Positions 830 to 9,039 of a stretch of DNA of 64,000 nucleotides are shown in pieces (position 1 is the first letter of the stretch; every line of letters begins with the position of its first letter). A program made the translations under genes and the position numbers. The stretch spans positions 4,097,001-4,161,000 of the forward strand of contig NZ_CP073104.1 of assembly GCF_018138145.1 (NCBI RefSeq), given 5' to 3'. This DNA comes from Pseudomonas sp. SCA2728.1_7. GTDB lineage: Bacteria > Pseudomonadota > Gammaproteobacteria > Pseudomonadales > Pseudomonadaceae. The notes under the pieces were generated by a model, which did no database searches, had not been told where the DNA came from, and saw only the letters and a list, made by a program, of their open reading frames with translations.

Positions 830-2446
830 ATGATGGTTGCTACCCGAGAGACGCTGCGTAGCTGGTTCTATCGCCCGTGGTTTTTGGCGATGATCGCGGC
901 TGTCCTCAGTGCCTGCCTGCTGATCGCCGGCGGAATGTTCGTGGCCATGCGTCAGGTCGAGCAAAGCGAAAGTCAGGAAATGAACGCGCAAGGCGAACGT
1001 TTCCTCGCCCGCCTCGAACAATTGTTCGGCCAGTTGCGCGAAAGTCTCGACGATCTCGAAGCGCAGCCATTGCGCAGTTGTGACGATGAAATGATCGCGA
1101 CCCTGCAGCAAGTCACCTTCAACTATCGCTTCGTCTACGAAGCGGCTTACATGGACGCCACGCGTATCTGCTCCAACCGCCCACGTCAGGAAGGCGTGTC
1201 GGTGGTACGGGCGCCGGATATCAGAGGGCCGACTTACAGCTATTGGCTCAATACCACCACCGAACCCGATGAAAACCGCGCCGCGCTGATGCTGGGTCGC
1301 GGCAATTTTCGTGTGGCCACATCACGCGGGCATCTGACCGACATGGTCGATCTGTCGCCCGGCAGCAGCCTACTGGTAGTACTCGATCATGGTACCCGGG
1401 CGATCCCGGTGCTCGGCACGGCGCAGGCCTGGCCACCGACCGAACATTGGCCACCGAAAAGTCGCGAGTCATTACAGGTCACTCAGACTCGGCTGATCTA
1501 CCGCATGCCCACCAACAATCCGGAATATCAACTGGTGCTGATCACGCCGCGCACCGGCATGCACATCCCTGCGATCTGGTGGTGGATGGTTCCGGCCTGC
1601 CTATTGCTCGGCGCATTCTTAGGGTTCTTTGTGTTCTTGCTGGTGCGCCAGCGCCAATCGCTGGACGCAGAACTCAATGGCGCCATTCGTCGGGGCGAGC
1701 TGCAGGTGCTCTATCAGCCGATCTTCGATCTCGACAGCCGCAACTGCGTCGGCGCCGAAGCCCTGCTGCGTTGGCGCCGCCCGGACGGCACGCTGACCAG
1801 TCCCGACCTGTTTATCCCCATGGCGGAGAACACTGGGCAGATTCGCCAGATGACCGACTTTGTCCTCCAGCGTTTGCTGGAACAACTGGGTCCGGTGCTG
1901 CGGGCCAATCCGCAACTGTATATCTCGGTTAACCTCGCCGCCTGCGACGTGATGGTGCCGCGCATCGGTCTGGTCATGGCGCGCTTGCTCACATTGCATC
2001 GAGTCGCCGCACGGCAGATTGCCTTCGAGGTCACCGAACGTGGCTTGATTGACGTGGTGGTGGCGCGGGAAAACCTGCAAGCCTTGCGCGATGTCGGCCA
2101 TCAGGTATTGATCGACGATTTCGGCACCGGCTATTGCAGCCTCGCCTACCTGCAAACCTTGCCGGTCGATTGCCTGAAGATCGACAAGGCCTTTATCGAC
2201 GCCCTCGGCCATGACGCAGCGAGCAGCGGCGTCGCCCCGCACATCATTCATATGGCCCAGGCGCTGGATCTGAAGGTGATTGCCGAAGGCATCGAACTGG
2301 AATCACAGGCTGAACTGCTCAGTAGCGAAGGGGTGAAATTCGGTCAAGGCTGGTTGTTCGCCCATGCGCTGAGCGCGGTGCAGTTCATCGAACTCATCAC
2401 TCGTGGCCGACGCCTCGCGGGAAGGCGTATGGACGACGAAGCCTAA
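830..2446 (+). CDS. CSS-motif EAL-domain cyclic-di-GMP phosphodiesterase
   Basis: This inner-membrane c-di-GMP phosphodiesterase has a periplasmic sensing domain. Transmembrane segment 1 is near residues 20-42. The periplasmic part carries Cys in PLRSCDDEM and in RICSNRP, matching the redox-sensing CSS domain family. A second transmembrane segment near 245-270 leads to an EAL domain. The EAL residues look complete: EALLRW (about 310), SVNLA, FEVTER, DDFGTGY (about 429), KIDKAF, IAEGIE and GQGWLF. It is therefore probably active, and there is no GGDEF partner domain. No clear Shine-Dalgarno precedes the ATG at 830. Its stop codon overlaps the kinB stop on the other strand. P. aeruginosa has ampDh2 directly beside kinB, so this gene is an extra at this site. 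Confidence 0.9.
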   Translation: MMVATRETLRSWFYRPWFLAMIAAVLSACLLIAGGMFVAMRQVEQSESQEMNAQGERFLARLEQLFGQLRESLDDLEAQPLRSCDDEMIATLQQVTFNYRFVYEAAYMDATRICSNRPRQEGVSVVRAPDIRGPTYSYWLNTTTEPDENRAALMLGRGNFRVATSRGHLTDMVDLSPGSSLLVVLDHGTRAIPVLGTAQAWPPTEHWPPKSRESLQVTQTRLIYRMPTNNPEYQLVLITPRTGMHIPAIWWWMVPACLLLGAFLGFFVFLLVRQRQSLDAELNGAIRRGELQVLYQPIFDLDSRNCVGAEALLRWRRPDGTLTSPDLFIPMAENTGQIRQMTDFVLQRLLEQLGPVLRANPQLYISVNLAACDVMVPRIGLVMARLLTLHRVAARQIAFEVTERGLIDVVVARENLQALRDVGHQVLIDDFGTGYCSLAYLQTLPVDCLKIDKAFIDALGHDAASSGVAPHIIHMAQALDLKVIAEGIELESQAELLSSEGVKFGQGWLFAHALSAVQFIELITRGRRLAGRRMDDEA

Positions 2447-4233
2447 ACGGCGAGCGCCATATAGAACTGCGTACCCTGCCCCGGCCGCGAATAAACGCCC
2501 ATGCGTCCGCCATGCAACTGGACGATTTCTTTGCACAGCGCCAGACCAAGCCCGGCGCCGCCCTTTTTGCGGCCGACCTGCACGAACGGCTCGAAGATCC
2601 GTCCTTGCTGGCCGTAGGCGATGCCTTCGCCATTGTCTTCGACGCTGATGATCACTCGCTCGCCATGTCGTCGCGCCTGCAAACGGATCTGACCGTCGCG
2701 GGCGGTATGGCGCAGGGCGTTGTCGATCAGGTTGTCGAGCACGCGATCGAGTTGCGCCTGATCGGCCTGCAAACGTGGTAGCGGTCCCTGTACTTCGACA
2801 TTCAGGGCGATGCCCTTGGCCGCCGCCGAGTCGGCAAAACGCAATTGCGCCTGCTCCAGCAAATCTTCGATGGAGCACGGCGCCAGTGTGAGTTTCTGCA
2901 GGCCATTCTGATAACGCGAGAAGTTGAGCAAGTCATTGATCAACTGCATCAGACGCTGCATTTCCTCGTTCACGGTGTCGAGCAGATCAGCCTCGCGGGA
3001 CTCCGCTGGAAACTTCGCCCGCTCGCGGAACAAACCGAACGCCATGTGCATACCGGTGACCGGCGTGCGCAGTTCGTGGGAGGCGCGCAAGACGAATTCA
3101 CTGCGCACCCGCTCGAAGGCGCGCTGCTCGGTGACATCGTGCAGCACCATCACCGCGCCGAGAATATGCCCTTGGGTGTGACTGACCGGGGTCAGGCTGT
3201 AGGTCAGCAGGCGTGATTCGCCGTCGACCTCGATACTCAAATCTTCCGGCGCCCGCTCCAGCGTGCCGCCGCGCAGCACCAGTTGCAGCTGCGCATCCAG
3301 CTCTGGGCGTTCCAGCGCCGTGCCCAGCCCCTGGCCAAGACGATCATCGTCCCAGCCCAATTGGCGCTGAGCCACTGGATTGAGGTGCTCCAGATTTCCC
3401 TGACGGTCGATCATCAGCAAGCCGTCATCGATGCTGTCGAGCACCGCTTGCAAGCGTTGCTGGCCGGCGAGCAATTCATCGACGTTGGTCGCCTGATGCT
3501 CGCGCAGTGCCTCAGCCATCAGGCCGAAGCGTTTGGTCAGCTGATTCATTTCCATCGCTGACGAAATCGGCAGGGTCACTTCAAAATTGCCTTGGCCGAT
3601 ATTGTCCGCCGCTTTCGCCAGCGCCTCGATCGGCGCGCCAAAACGCCTGGCAATGCCGTGGGCCGTGATGAAACCGATGATCAGCACCGCCAACCCGACA
3701 AATCCCAGCAGACCGGCAATCAACAAGGCACGGTCACGCGCCTCACGCTGTACCGCGTTGATGTTGTCCAGTGCATGCTTGTGTTCGGTGATCAGTCCGT
3801 TGCGCAACGTGTTGAAGCGCTCCCGGAATTCGGCGCTGCTACTCATCGAGCTGGCCGGGTCACGGGACAAATCGAAAGCTTCGAGGAAACTCAGATAATC
3901 CGCTTTTGCCCGACTGAAGCCGTATAGCCGACCATCGCCCTCTTGCTCTTGGGCGATGCCTTGGTCCAGCAATTCGAAGTAATGCTGTTTTGACGCTTCG
4001 AACGCCACGGGATCAGGCTTTTCCGCGAGCATGATGATCAGTTGATCACCCAGCGTCTGGCGCAACTTGAGCCCCAGATCCAGAGTGACGAAGTTGCTGC
4101 GCACCAACGCTTCTTGAGTGCCGGCCATCTGCATCACGCTGACCAGCCCGAGCAACAGCCCGAGCAAGGCCACGGTGATCAGCGCGGAAATGCTCAAGAA
4201 CAAACGGGTCCGCAACTTCATCGCCAGTTTCAT
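2443..4233 (-). CDS. kinB: Sensor histidine kinase KinB
   Basis: This is the membrane sensor kinase paired with AlgB, which controls alginate and virulence genes in P. aeruginosa. The protein is 596 aa (the P. aeruginosa protein is about 595). It has a transmembrane segment near 10-30, a periplasmic helical domain, a second transmembrane segment near 165-190, HAMP, and a PAS domain (VLDSIDDGLLMIDRQGNLEH). The HisKA H-box SHELRTPVTG has His near 385. The ATPase domain has an N-box (DNLIDNALRH), DNGEGIAYG and GAGLGLAL. ATG 4233 lies 10 bp after the algB stop; ATG 4221 (MKLRTRLFL) is a possible alternative. The frame is open further upstream into algB, but that extension is not protein-like. kinB is translated after algB in one operon. 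Confidence 0.95.
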   Translation of the reverse strand: MKLAMKLRTRLFLSISALITVALLGLLLGLVSVMQMAGTQEALVRSNFVTLDLGLKLRQTLGDQLIIMLAEKPDPVAFEASKQHYFELLDQGIAQEQEGDGRLYGFSRAKADYLSFLEAFDLSRDPASSMSSSAEFRERFNTLRNGLITEHKHALDNINAVQREARDRALLIAGLLGFVGLAVLIIGFITAHGIARRFGAPIEALAKAADNIGQGNFEVTLPISSAMEMNQLTKRFGLMAEALREHQATNVDELLAGQQRLQAVLDSIDDGLLMIDRQGNLEHLNPVAQRQLGWDDDRLGQGLGTALERPELDAQLQLVLRGGTLERAPEDLSIEVDGESRLLTYSLTPVSHTQGHILGAVMVLHDVTEQRAFERVRSEFVLRASHELRTPVTGMHMAFGLFRERAKFPAESREADLLDTVNEEMQRLMQLINDLLNFSRYQNGLQKLTLAPCSIEDLLEQAQLRFADSAAAKGIALNVEVQGPLPRLQADQAQLDRVLDNLIDNALRHTARDGQIRLQARRHGERVIISVEDNGEGIAYGQQGRIFEPFVQVGRKKGGAGLGLALCKEIVQLHGGRMGVYSRPGQGTQFYMALAV

Positions 4234-4243
4234 CGCCGGACAC

Positions 4244-5590
<1,347 letters not shown>

Positions 5591-5828
5591 TTTTCCTACG
5601 CTCCATAGTGATTGGTCTTGGGTTAGTCCCGGAAAAATCGGGCAAGTTGCATGGTTGATTCTGAACGATGCCAGCCATAGGAGGGTAGCTCTCTCCTGCC
5701 TTTACGGCCAATACGTTGATTTTGTTGGTTTTTTAAACAAATACCGATTTGCAGGGAATTCCCTGCGTACTTTTCTGACATCTGCGCCCCGCTCTCAATT
5801 CCATAAGAATGAAATCTCCTACGAAAAA

Positions 5829-5847
5829 ATCGTGCATTGCGCACGAT
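5829..5847. promoter_or_regulatory. 19-bp palindrome, candidate enhancer site for the sigma-54 promoter at 5940
   Basis: ATCGTGC, 5 bp, GCACGAT is a perfect inverted repeat. A second ATCGTGC half-site lies at 5860-5866. The centre is about 128 bp upstream of the predicted start site, a typical place for an enhancer-binding protein. AlgB, encoded next door with an intact GAFTGA loop, is the obvious candidate, but this is inference. Confidence 0.55.
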
Positions 5848-5899
5848 CCCAGATGACCCATCGTGCAGGATGCGTCGCAAACGATTTTCTGCATACGCA

Positions 5900-5912
5900 T
5901 AACTTATTGATT
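5900..5912 (-). promoter_or_regulatory. IHF binding site (consensus match)
   Basis: TAACTTATTGATT fits the IHF consensus YAA-N4-TTGATW exactly and sits in an AT-rich stretch. It lies between the palindrome at 5829-5847 and the -24/-12 element at 5940-5956, where IHF bending would bring an enhancer-bound activator to sigma-54 polymerase. Confidence 0.55.
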
Positions 5913-5939
5913 TTATTGGATATTTTTCAATTAAAAAAC

Positions 5940-5956
5940 TGGCATGCAGGCTGCAA
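5940..5956 (+). promoter_or_regulatory. Sigma-54 (RpoN) promoter, -24/-12 element
   Basis: TGGCATGCAGGCTGCAA has the GG-N10-GC spacing of RpoN promoters and is close to TGGCAC-N5-TTGCW, with CTGCA in place of TTGCA. The predicted start is near 5966, about 50 bp before the gene at 6018. With the palindrome and IHF site upstream, it forms a full enhancer-dependent promoter. The remaining 427-bp gap between algB and 6018 holds no gene that I can support. Confidence 0.65.
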
Positions 5957-6017
5957 TATCTTACTCAGCCCGGGCAGAAATGAACTGCCCCAACCGAATA
6001 AGAGTGAGGAACCCAGG

Positions 6018-6302
6018 ATGACTCGCCAACGTGCCGCCCAAGTGCGTATCTCGCCACTGCACATCCAGCAAGGTCTGTTTGGCGTATTGGCGCTGTTGAT
6101 CACCCTGATCGCCTGCCAGCAATACCTGCGCTGGGAAAACAGCCAGCAGGCTGAGCCGCTGATTTCGATCCAGCACAACACGCAAACGCACTTCAGCGCC
6201 GTAAGCAGCAGCCAGGCCGAGAGCGCCTCGATGCGCATGATGGATGTCGATCAGGCGCAGCCACTGGATCAACTGCCACGTGAAGAGCGTTGGGTTTTCT
6301 AA
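6018..6302 (+). CDS. Small single-pass membrane protein of unknown function
   Basis: I do not recognise a named family. The protein is 94 aa: a basic N-terminus (MTRQRAAQVR), one hydrophobic segment near residues 19-34 (GLFGVLALLITLIACQQ), then a soluble polar tail rich in Gln and Ser, ending EERWVF. The topology suggests a tail in the periplasm. ATG 6018 has the Shine-Dalgarno AGTGAGGA upstream. The frame is open further upstream, but that part would cover the sigma-54 promoter and is not protein-like. It is the first gene after that promoter and is followed by a DUF1328 gene and an Ivy-type inhibitor, so an envelope-stress role is plausible. In P. aeruginosa a hypothetical gene occupies the same place between algB and the Ivy gene. 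Confidence 0.7.
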   Translation: MTRQRAAQVRISPLHIQQGLFGVLALLITLIACQQYLRWENSQQAEPLISIQHNTQTHFSAVSSSQAESASMRMMDVDQAQPLDQLPREERWVF

Positions 6303-6539
<237 letters not shown>

Positions 6540-6541
6540 CG

Positions 6542-7006
6542 ATGAGTGCTTTGAAGACACTGGCAGCCGCCCTGCTTCTGGGCGGTAGTGCCATGGCGAT
6601 GGCGGCCAACGACGGCCAGGCGCGGGTCAACGAACTGCTCGCCTCTGACGAGCAGTACCGTGAAACCTGGGAAGGCGTAATCAAGAAAGAAGAGCGCGTA
6701 CCGGAATGGGTGATCAACCTGTCCGGGACCTCCGAACAACAGATGAACGCGGTTACTGAGGACGACGAGAAATACTTGGTCGGCCCGCTCTGCGAGAATC
6801 AGGACAAGTGCCTGAATCATCGATTGATCGTCGCATTCAGTTTTGACAAGGATGACGCCTACGCCATGCTGGTTGATGTGCCTGAAGGCCTTCCGCAAGA
6901 CAAGTCACCGACGCGACATGCGACCTATCGCTTCTTCGGCAAACCCGACCAAGGTATGCAGGATCTACTGATGGAAACCCTGAAGAAAGATCCGAAGTGG
7001 TATTGA
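6542..7006 (+). CDS. Ivy-type periplasmic C-type lysozyme inhibitor
   Basis: A secreted inhibitor of vertebrate C-type lysozyme that protects peptidoglycan. The protein is 154 aa with a signal peptide (MSALKTLAAALLLGGSAMAMA, cleavage near residue 22). The mature part carries the two-cysteine loop CENQDKC where Ivy proteins have their inhibitory CKPHDC loop, then HRLIVAFSFD and a conserved C-terminus (KKDPKWY). It resembles the second P. aeruginosa Ivy homologue, which is also next to algB. ATG 6542 is 2 bp after the DUF1328 stop; an in-frame TTG lies 6 bp earlier. Being last in a unit with a sigma-54 promoter next to algB-kinB suggests envelope defence under KinB/AlgB control (inference). Confidence 0.85.
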   Translation: MSALKTLAAALLLGGSAMAMAANDGQARVNELLASDEQYRETWEGVIKKEERVPEWVINLSGTSEQQMNAVTEDDEKYLVGPLCENQDKCLNHRLIVAFSFDKDDAYAMLVDVPEGLPQDKSPTRHATYRFFGKPDQGMQDLLMETLKKDPKWY

Positions 7007-7424
7007 TTTGAACATGAGGGCAGCGCCCTGCTGCCCTCCATTGCGCCCACCTGAGGAAGGCCGGCGCATGACCAAGGGGCCGGGACGTTCTGACTGTTGC
7101 AGGGTCGGAGTGACCTACGGGTACAGGGAGTGCCTGCGCAAGGGCCGGGTCAGGGTAAAAGCTGCGCCGCAGGTTCGCCGACCCACAGTGGTTCGACGGA
7201 CTTGCGCTGAGCTTTCAATCAGATAAAACGTTGATCCAGAGCGTCCAGCTCGTTCCTTTTATCGCTGACACTGCGCGCGAAAACATTACGCGGTGTTTCC
7301 TGGCGACCGTATATCGACAAAAAAACCGTTTAAACAGTAGGACTTCTAGTCTTCCAACGTAGGCTTTTTCCTAAGTTTTTAGTCGATTTTTCTTGTTCAA
7401 AAAACAACCAACCTTCGCTGTGAT
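7007..7424. other. Non-coding stretch after the Ivy gene
   Basis: No convincing gene. 7020-7230 is GC-rich with several short self-complementary pieces (for example CCTGCGCAAGG) and a 72-codon plus-strand frame, rich in Arg and Cys, which I do not believe is translated. 7230-7424 is AT-richer, with runs of A and T. I could not match it to a known RNA family. Confidence 0.4.
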
Positions 7425-7578
7425 GACCGGTTCACGGCACTTATGCCGGCCGAAATGTCACAATCGAACCGGTTGGGACGCCAGTTTCATTAAAAAAAGC
7501 TCATGCCGATTCGGCATAGGGTAGGCGTTTACGGCATTAGACGGCGCAACCTTGCATCGGAATAGTTGCGCCTTTTTT
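7425..7578 (+). ncRNA. Structured leader or small RNA ending in an intrinsic terminator, upstream of gltP
   Basis: CCGGTTC near 7428 pairs with GAACCGG near 7467. Within it GGC and GCC arms can pair, then ATGCCG-att-CGGCAT forms a hairpin at 7503-7517. The stretch ends in a textbook terminator: GGCGCAAC (7543-7550), a 14-nt loop, GTTGCGCC (7565-7572) and TTTTTT (7573-7578). It lies 130 bp before the gltP start and 540 bp after the previous gene, so it is unlikely to be the terminator of the Ivy operon alone. It could be an attenuated gltP leader or an independent sRNA. I cannot identify a promoter with confidence. Confidence 0.5.
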
Positions 7579-7707
7579 CGCCTGCCGAAGAGCCGTAATC
7601 ACGCGCTTCGGGGCACCTTATACGGAGGCAGATGCACAGACTTTTCCGCTAATGAGCGTTCCAGTTCCTGCATGTGCCTGAGTCAAACGCAAGTAAGGGT
7701 AAAGATA

Positions 7708-9039
7708 ATGAAGAAGGCAAAAATTAGCCTCGCCTGGCAGATCCTCATCGGTCTGGTTTTGGGTATTGCAATTGGTGCGTTGCTCAACCATTTCAGTGCC
7801 GAGAAGGCCTGGTGGATCAGCAACGTCCTGCAACCGGCAGGCGATATCTTTATCCGTCTGATCAAGATGATCGTGATTCCGATCGTCATCTCTTCCCTGA
7901 TCGTCGGCATCGCCGGCGTGGGCGACGCCAAGAAGCTCGGGCGTATCGGCCTGAAGACGATCATCTATTTCGAAATCGTCACCACCATCGCCATCGTCGT
8001 AGGCCTGCTGCTGGCCAACCTGTTCCATCCGGGCACAGGCATCGACATGAGCACCCTCGGCACGGTGGATATCTCCAAGTACCAGGCAACCGCCGCCGAG
8101 GTACAGCATGAACACGCGTTCATCGAGACCATCCTCAACCTGATCCCGTCGAACATCTTCGCGGCCATGGCCCGCGGCGAAATGCTGCCGATCATCTTCT
8201 TCTCCGTGCTGTTCGGTCTCGGTCTGTCGAGCCTGCAGTCGGACCTGCGCGAGCCGCTGGTGAAGATGTTCCAGGGCGTCTCGGAAAGCATGTTCAAAGT
8301 CACCCACATGATCATGAACTATGCGCCGATCGGCGTATTCGCACTGATCGCGGTGACCGTCGCCAACTTCGGCTTCGCCTCACTGCTGCCGCTGGCCAAA
8401 CTGGTGATCCTGGTTTACGTCGCCATCGCCTTCTTCGCCTTCGTGGTGCTGGGCCTGATCGCCAAGCTGTTCGGCTTCTCGGTGATCAAGCTGATGCGCA
8501 TCTTCAAGGATGAGCTGGTGCTGGCCTACTCCACCGCTTCTTCGGAAACCGTGCTGCCACGCGTGATCGAGAAGATGGAAGCCTACGGCGCGCCGAAAGC
8601 CATCTGCAGCTTCGTGGTACCGACCGGTTATTCGTTCAACCTCGACGGTTCGACCCTGTACCAGTCCATCGCGGCGATCTTCATCGCTCAGCTGTACGGC
8701 ATTGATCTGTCGATCAGCCAGCAGCTGCTGCTGGTCCTGACCCTGATGGTCACCTCCAAAGGCATCGCCGGCGTACCGGGCGTGTCCTTCGTGGTGCTGC
8801 TGGCGACCCTCGGCAGTGTTGGTATTCCGCTGGAAGGTCTGGCGTTCATCGCCGGTGTCGACCGCATCATGGACATGGCGCGTACTGCACTGAACGTGAT
8901 TGGTAACGCCCTGGCGGTACTGGTTATCGCACGTTGGGAAGGCATGTACGACGATGCCAAGGGCCAGCGCTACTGGAACTCCCTGCCGCACTGGCGCAGC
9001 AAGGAAAAACTGCCAGCGGGCGAAATCTCGAAGAACTGA
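7708..9039 (+). CDS. gltP: Glutamate/aspartate:proton symporter (DAACS family)
   Basis: An inner-membrane SLC1/DAACS carrier for dicarboxylic amino acids, 443 aa with about eight membrane segments. Family signatures are visible: AYSTASSETVLPRVIEKME (re-entrant hairpin 1), TGYSFNLDGSTLYQSIAAIF (transmembrane segment 7) and SKGIAGVPGVSFVVLLATL (hairpin 2), then IAGVDRIMDMARTALNVIG (transmembrane segment 8) with the substrate-binding Asp and Asn. ATG 7708 (MKKAKISLAWQ) follows the Shine-Dalgarno AAGTAAGGG. A longer open frame from 7552 runs through the leader terminator and is rejected. P. aeruginosa gltP lies in the same place relative to algB. A structured leader (7425-7578) may regulate it. 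Confidence 0.93.
   Translation: MKKAKISLAWQILIGLVLGIAIGALLNHFSAEKAWWISNVLQPAGDIFIRLIKMIVIPIVISSLIVGIAGVGDAKKLGRIGLKTIIYFEIVTTIAIVVGLLLANLFHPGTGIDMSTLGTVDISKYQATAAEVQHEHAFIETILNLIPSNIFAAMARGEMLPIIFFSVLFGLGLSSLQSDLREPLVKMFQGVSESMFKVTHMIMNYAPIGVFALIAVTVANFGFASLLPLAKLVILVYVAIAFFAFVVLGLIAKLFGFSVIKLMRIFKDELVLAYSTASSETVLPRVIEKMEAYGAPKAICSFVVPTGYSFNLDGSTLYQSIAAIFIAQLYGIDLSISQQLLLVLTLMVTSKGIAGVPGVSFVVLLATLGSVGIPLEGLAFIAGVDRIMDMARTALNVIGNALAVLVIARWEGMYDDAKGQRYWNSLPHWRSKEKLPAGEISKN

Follow-up and report, generated by a model that had tools for sequence, protein, structure and literature searches.

A conserved sigma-54-type promoter beside algB in Pseudomonas precedes a gene for a likely AlgW activator with an RWVF tail

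What does the intergenic region upstream of algB control in Pseudomonas, and is its target separate from alginate, as a first-pass annotation had proposed? The window analyzed here is a stretch of 64,000 nucleotides from Pseudomonas sp. SCA2728.1_7. In this window, algB, encoding an NtrC-type response regulator with a GAFTGA motif (4244..5590, minus strand), and kinB, encoding a sensor kinase (2443..4233, minus strand; PF16767, KinB_sensor), run opposite to an operon whose first gene (6018..6302, plus strand) encodes a 94-aa small protein without a Pfam match. The codons of its C-terminal RWVF lie at 6288..6299 (plus strand), and this protein is the proposed AlgW activator. It is followed by the genes for a 54-aa DUF1328 protein (6375..6539, plus strand; PF07043) and an Ivy-type inhibitor of lysozyme and lytic transglycosylase (6542..7006, plus strand; PF08816, 142.5 bits with a cut-off of 21). 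Ivyp2 is identified with PA5481 in the accessible part of PMC10746161. The reading that I favor, with a probability of roughly 0.7, is that AlgB and RpoN would drive this operon from a sigma-54 promoter, that the RWVF tail of the first product would activate AlgW, and that DUF1328 and Ivy would protect the envelope.

Enhancer dimer sites, an IHF site, and a sigma-54 element make up the general architecture of NtrC-type promoters. The region from 5829 to 5955 resembles such promoters in having two dimer sites about three turns apart, a bend site, and a TGGCAY..TGCA element, all in the same order and spacing. Enhancer dyad 1, ATCGTGC-N5-GCACGAT (5829..5847), is a proposed AlgB dimer site, on the basis of its sequence and of 107 loci described below. 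It had been annotated as a perfect 19-bp palindrome; the position was right, but only the 7-bp arms are perfect, and since the 5-bp center is not palindromic, the full 19 bp are not either. The supposed extra half-site, ATCGTGC at 5860-5866, does exist, but it is not isolated; it forms one arm of a second, degenerate dyad, ATCGTGCAGGATGCGTCGC (5860..5878), 31 bp or about three helical turns from dyad 1. The exact IHF consensus, WATCAANNNNTTR, was found on the minus strand at 5900..5912, between the enhancer and the promoter, as had been claimed. The predicted GG-N10-GC element was likewise recovered, as a sigma-54 -24/-12 element TGGCATG-CAGG-CTGCA on the plus strand (5940..5955; GG at 5941-5942 and GC at 5953-5954), which in the window matches TGGCAYG-N4-TTGCW at 11 of 12 positions. 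Transcription would be expected to start near 5966. A sigma-70 scan found no sigma-70 site in 5580-7720. In a whole-genome pattern search, the exact dyad 1 palindrome was found at a single place in the 6.78-Mb genome, and for the two other palindromes of that genome that differ from it by one mismatch, no -24/-12 element scoring 9/12 or more lies at the right distance.

Is this layout conserved in the genus? Of 149 sampled genomes of the same genus, 107 have the 94-aa protein. The gap was compared across Pseudomonas, a check that the annotation itself had suggested, and both dyads and the -24/-12 element proved to be kept in all 107 upstream regions with near-fixed spacing. Dyad 1 scores 11-12/12 in 104 regions and 9 or 10 in the other three, the -24/-12 element scores 10-11/12 in every region, and the second half-site TCGTGCA matches 7/7 throughout, at an offset of +31 (89 loci) or +32 (18 loci). 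The distance from dyad 1 to the start of the -24 element is 109 bp (3 loci), 110 bp (54), 111 bp (28), 112 bp (21), or 114 bp (1), so that the claimed order and spacing of enhancer and promoter hold within 109-114 bp in 107/107 loci. The weakest element is the IHF site, which is exact in 64/107 regions and has at most one mismatch in 104/107. The composite pattern is present in 131 of the 149 genus genomes, and a reversed-pattern control gave one match in all of them. A chance layout was ruled out by the single genomic palindrome, by the difference between 131/149 genomes and one reversed match, and by the 107/107 conservation. As far as a comparison of sequences can tell, the promoter is real and conserved beyond chance. 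The dyad sits between divergent genes and might therefore be an autoregulatory operator of algB-kinB beside an incidental GG-N10-GC match. This is extremely improbable, as the -24/-12 element stands at its near-fixed distance from the dyad in every locus, 22 of the 107 loci retain the pair even though the algB start is absent from the approximately 1 kb fetched, and similar units are found at distal genes.

Which regulator would act on this promoter? It departs from other NtrC-type promoters in that its activator is probably AlgB; for algD, the known AlgB target, control is described as independent of sigma-54. In the accessible text of PMC8041468, no AlgB motif is given. AlgB was found in 144 of the 149 genus genomes, three (G075, G092, and G106) being partial matches. 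The composite pattern occurs in 131/144 AlgB-positive genus genomes and in 0/5 AlgB-negative ones (Fisher 1.5e-5, with no correction for relatedness); these five also have no DUF1328 match. In a sample of the family, AlgB is present in 89/119 genomes and the composite in 48/119, all 48 of which are AlgB-positive, while the reversed pattern is found in none. This gives 48/89 AlgB-positive versus 0/30 AlgB-negative family genomes (Fisher 1e-8, again with no correction for relatedness). Some genomes belong to both the genus and the family sample, relatives do not count as independent observations, and part of the co-occurrence with AlgB reflects shared ancestry.

A further 37 genus genomes have AlgB and no match to the small ORF. 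In 33 of these 37 loci, a unit starts at most 120 bp from the algB start, and a more distal unit is present in 23; reversed sequences gave none. Because the composite tracks AlgB and the layout is conserved, AlgB is the likely activator of the promoter via RpoN, as the annotation had suggested; the unit beside algB and the GAFTGA motif, found intact as stated there, speak for the same assignment. An enhancer-binding protein other than AlgB might activate the promoter, the adjacency of algB being historical. For P. aeruginosa, PMC10418997 gives a figure of up to 22 enhancer-binding proteins, and some units lie far from algB. Such an activator is quite unlikely, given that the composite is found in none of 35 AlgB-negative genomes (5 from the genus and 30 from the family) and that the unit lies so close to algB in 33/37 loci.

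In a sample of the order, the composite was found in 11/293 genomes, 9 of which belong to the family. The 2 matches in 279 order genomes outside the family are near chance, since the reversed pattern also matched once there. A composite match with a double dyad lies outside the family (G344:C28:11147-11273); it may be a sign of an AlgB-like system in another part of the order, or a chance match. In G092 (L080 and L149), only AlgB residues 148-448 were matched, about 15 kb from the operon. The composite promoter is still there, and algB looks broken or displaced.

What does the first gene of the operon encode? The 94-aa protein has one hydrophobic helix (residues 14-32), preceded by three positive and no negative residues, as judged by hydropathy only, and a hydrophobic helix near the N-terminus was found in 5/5 small proteins checked. 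Its C-terminus is PREERWVF. An early count of C-termini favored VF endings, and the tails were recounted by homology frame in 103 copies (the 107 loci minus 4 without a tblastn hit). The tail is WVF in 100/103 copies and WMF, WTF, or WIF in one each. Thus W at position -2 and F at position 0 are kept in 103/103, V at -1 in 100/103, and R at -3 in 87/103, while position -5 is Q in 70/103 and E in 21/103. Sixteen chosen relatives are only 15-49% identical to the window protein, and when 17 chosen copies are aligned, M1 and the final F alone are invariant, with W kept in at least 90%.

The tail was also found outside these copies. In 21 of the 37 further genus loci, the unit is followed by an ORF ending in WVF. 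Among the 79 named-genome loci listed, 53 were examined; a tail ORF lies behind the unit in 38 of them (37 WVF and one WIF), including loci of P. putida NBRC 14671, P. chlororaphis, P. fragi, and Stutzerimonas stutzeri, while 10 have the unit only and 5 have neither, three of these five being outside Pseudomonadaceae. In other genera, a tail ORF was found in 14 of 20 algB loci, which are a choice from 76 AlgB genomes and include 11 from one genus. Across the genera compared, the WVF tail recurs on highly diverged small proteins. The tail protein is missing in some species, which counts against the favored reading. Protein searches with small ORFs gave no functional name. Among 120 listed of 397 matches, "hypothetical protein" is the usual name, with "Lipoprotein" given to a few and "SURF1-like protein" to one; two further searches (12 and 26 hits) gave only "hypothetical protein" or no name.

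The tail resembles the signal of a known system. The available parts of PMC3819740 and PMC8545111 describe MucE as a dedicated AlgW activator, whose RWVF tail binds the PDZ domain of AlgW and whose WVF activates AlgW and thereby leads to MucA cleavage and AlgU release. When AlgW was crystallized with the MucE decapeptide SVRDELRWVF, the -3R was seen to contact E285 and the -5E to contact K287 (PMC8545111, accessible text). Like MucE, the window protein is a small envelope protein with a C-terminal RWVF, and its tail also has -3R and -5E; the two were compared by tail only. AlgW and a MucA-type protein are also encoded in the window's genome. The AlgW (E 4e-193 to 7co3) keeps W281, L282, E285, M342, and R374 and has the substitutions V284 to I, Y311 to F, and K287 to Q, while an RseA_N/MucA-type protein is encoded about 1.8 kb from an HtrA-type gene. 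Thus the small WVF protein, whose tail the annotation had passed over and which is the most interesting part of the locus, is likely to be an AlgW activator. The two systems differ in their control. According to the accessible text of PMC3819740, MucE orthologues are reported only in P. aeruginosa, and of five sigma factors overexpressed, AlgU, not RpoN, raised the mucE promoter. In contrast, the window gene lies behind a sigma-54 layout together with DUF1328 and ivy. Another comparable case is PilA108 of strain PAO579, an RpoN-driven product whose aromatic-x-Phe tail, FTF, activates AlgW (PMC3684759, in the part available). PilA108 shares with the window protein an RpoN-type gene and such a tail, but it is a mutant pilin of one strain, whereas the window gene is dedicated and conserved. 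A lysozyme defense separate from alginate was rejected as the main reading on this tail evidence. With a first gene ending in the RWVF by which MucE is known to activate AlgW, the operon points toward the pathway of AlgW, MucA, and AlgU. It would fill in a step on the way from KinB-AlgB-RpoN to AlgW, and the annotation's phrase "separate from alginate" is therefore probably wrong.

How might the pathway run? According to the accessible parts of PMC13001231 and PMC6932827, AlgB is active when the KinB phosphatase is off; the phosphorylation state of the active form is one that I infer. AlgB would bind the dyads as two dimers 31 bp apart, the DNA would be bent, probably by IHF, between the enhancer and the -24/-12 element, and RpoN would transcribe the operon from the promoter at 5829-5955. 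The first product would be a small inner-membrane protein with its RWVF tail in the periplasm, where the tail may bind the PDZ domain of AlgW and activate it. Activated AlgW would cut MucA, so that AlgU would be released, while the co-produced DUF1328 and Ivy would protect the wall. On balance, I also lean toward a wider statement, held a little less firmly, that AlgB and RpoN control, across the family, a set of dedicated small membrane proteins that are highly diverged and have in common only the task of presenting AlgW with a WVF-type tail. By synthesizing a mimic of the misfolded-porin signal, a two-component system would then switch on an ECF sigma factor, and this would be the missing step from KinB-AlgB-RpoN to MucA cleavage.

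If true, a conserved sigma-54 gene next to algB whose product carries the AlgW signal would account for the input of KinB-AlgB and RpoN into AlgU throughout Pseudomonadaceae, and a WVF gene behind an activator-dependent promoter suggests how one signaling system could turn on another. The accessible text of PMC13001231 names no ligand that AlgB supplies to AlgW, and in that of PMC6932827, the repression of biofilm by phosphorylated AlgB is inferred to run through the activation of a gene still to be identified. A literature search found no earlier report of a link among AlgB, a tail protein, and AlgW, although subscription journals may hold one. Several published results fit less simply. PMC10418997 disagrees with other accounts on which form of AlgB promotes alginate; there, algD is activated by AlgB in its unphosphorylated state, and phosphorylated AlgB is a repressor of alginate. 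Alginate production is normal in an algB mutant of Azotobacter vinelandii, a species without a KinB homologue (PMC6979010). In P. fluorescens F113, one and the same second flagellum is derepressed in kinB and in algU mutants (PMC5031763), a result not readily reconciled with KinB as an AlgU brake. RpoN is reported to drive algW itself (PMC3684759, accessible part), and RpoN could for that reason be required even if no tail protein took part, although in the window's genome no sigma-54-like site upstream of algW scores above 9/12. The MucE tail pattern, sought in order to locate P. aeruginosa, gave 0 matches in 18 + 25 genomes of two genera, and P. aeruginosa is not among the 79 named-genome loci listed. 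Since P. aeruginosa was not located in the genomes searched, the link to its kinB phenotype is indirect.

What else lies behind such units? The gene behind the algB-proximal unit encodes a BON-domain or DUF2383 protein in the loci read. Units of other genomes lie in front of BON genes with CsbD genes after them, of a DUF3509 gene, or of the gene for a 309-aa protein without a Pfam match. DUF1328 lies within the fetched stretch in 31 of the 37 further loci. In L121, L198, L239, and L248, the unit leads directly to DUF1328, and in L122, a distal unit and DUF1328 are present but a tail ORF is not. This target set fits envelope stress. The annotation's idea of an envelope-defense regulon is supported by comparison, with DUF1328 and Ivy here and BON, CsbD, and DUF2383 genes behind like units elsewhere. 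It may be asked whether AlgB-RpoN controls a regulon of pure envelope defense, in which the small protein is an unrelated envelope protein and RWVF serves something else, such as stability or membrane packing. The Ivy, DUF1328, BON, CsbD, and DUF2383 targets do look like envelope or stress proteins, and some units have no tail protein behind them. This remains unlikely, because very few positions besides the W and F of the tail hold across genera, both residues are present in all genus copies, the tail matches the crystallized AlgW ligand including -3R, and WVF recurs on highly diverged bodies. An AlgW-activating role of the small protein is accordingly the reading that I prefer.

The window itself has the remains of a second, algB-proximal unit. 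Its decayed dyad, TCGGGCAAGTTGCATGG (5638..5654), is intact before the BON/DUF2383 gene in other species. An IHF-like site lies near it at 5709-5721, and inspection of the window sequence found no GG-N10-GC at the matching distance from the decayed unit (5638-5721).

A second composite unit was found elsewhere in the window's genome (L180; G000:C1:5789527-5789652, minus strand). It precedes the genes for a 78-aa protein ending in EHLVF and a 59-aa protein, both without a Pfam match, and similar units and genes are present in three other sampled genomes (L181-L183). In three genomes (L195-L197), a unit lies about 2.5 kb past the 3′ end of algB, where kinB is expected, and precedes the genes for a different protein of 100-103 aa ending in PRWVF and a 61-aa protein.
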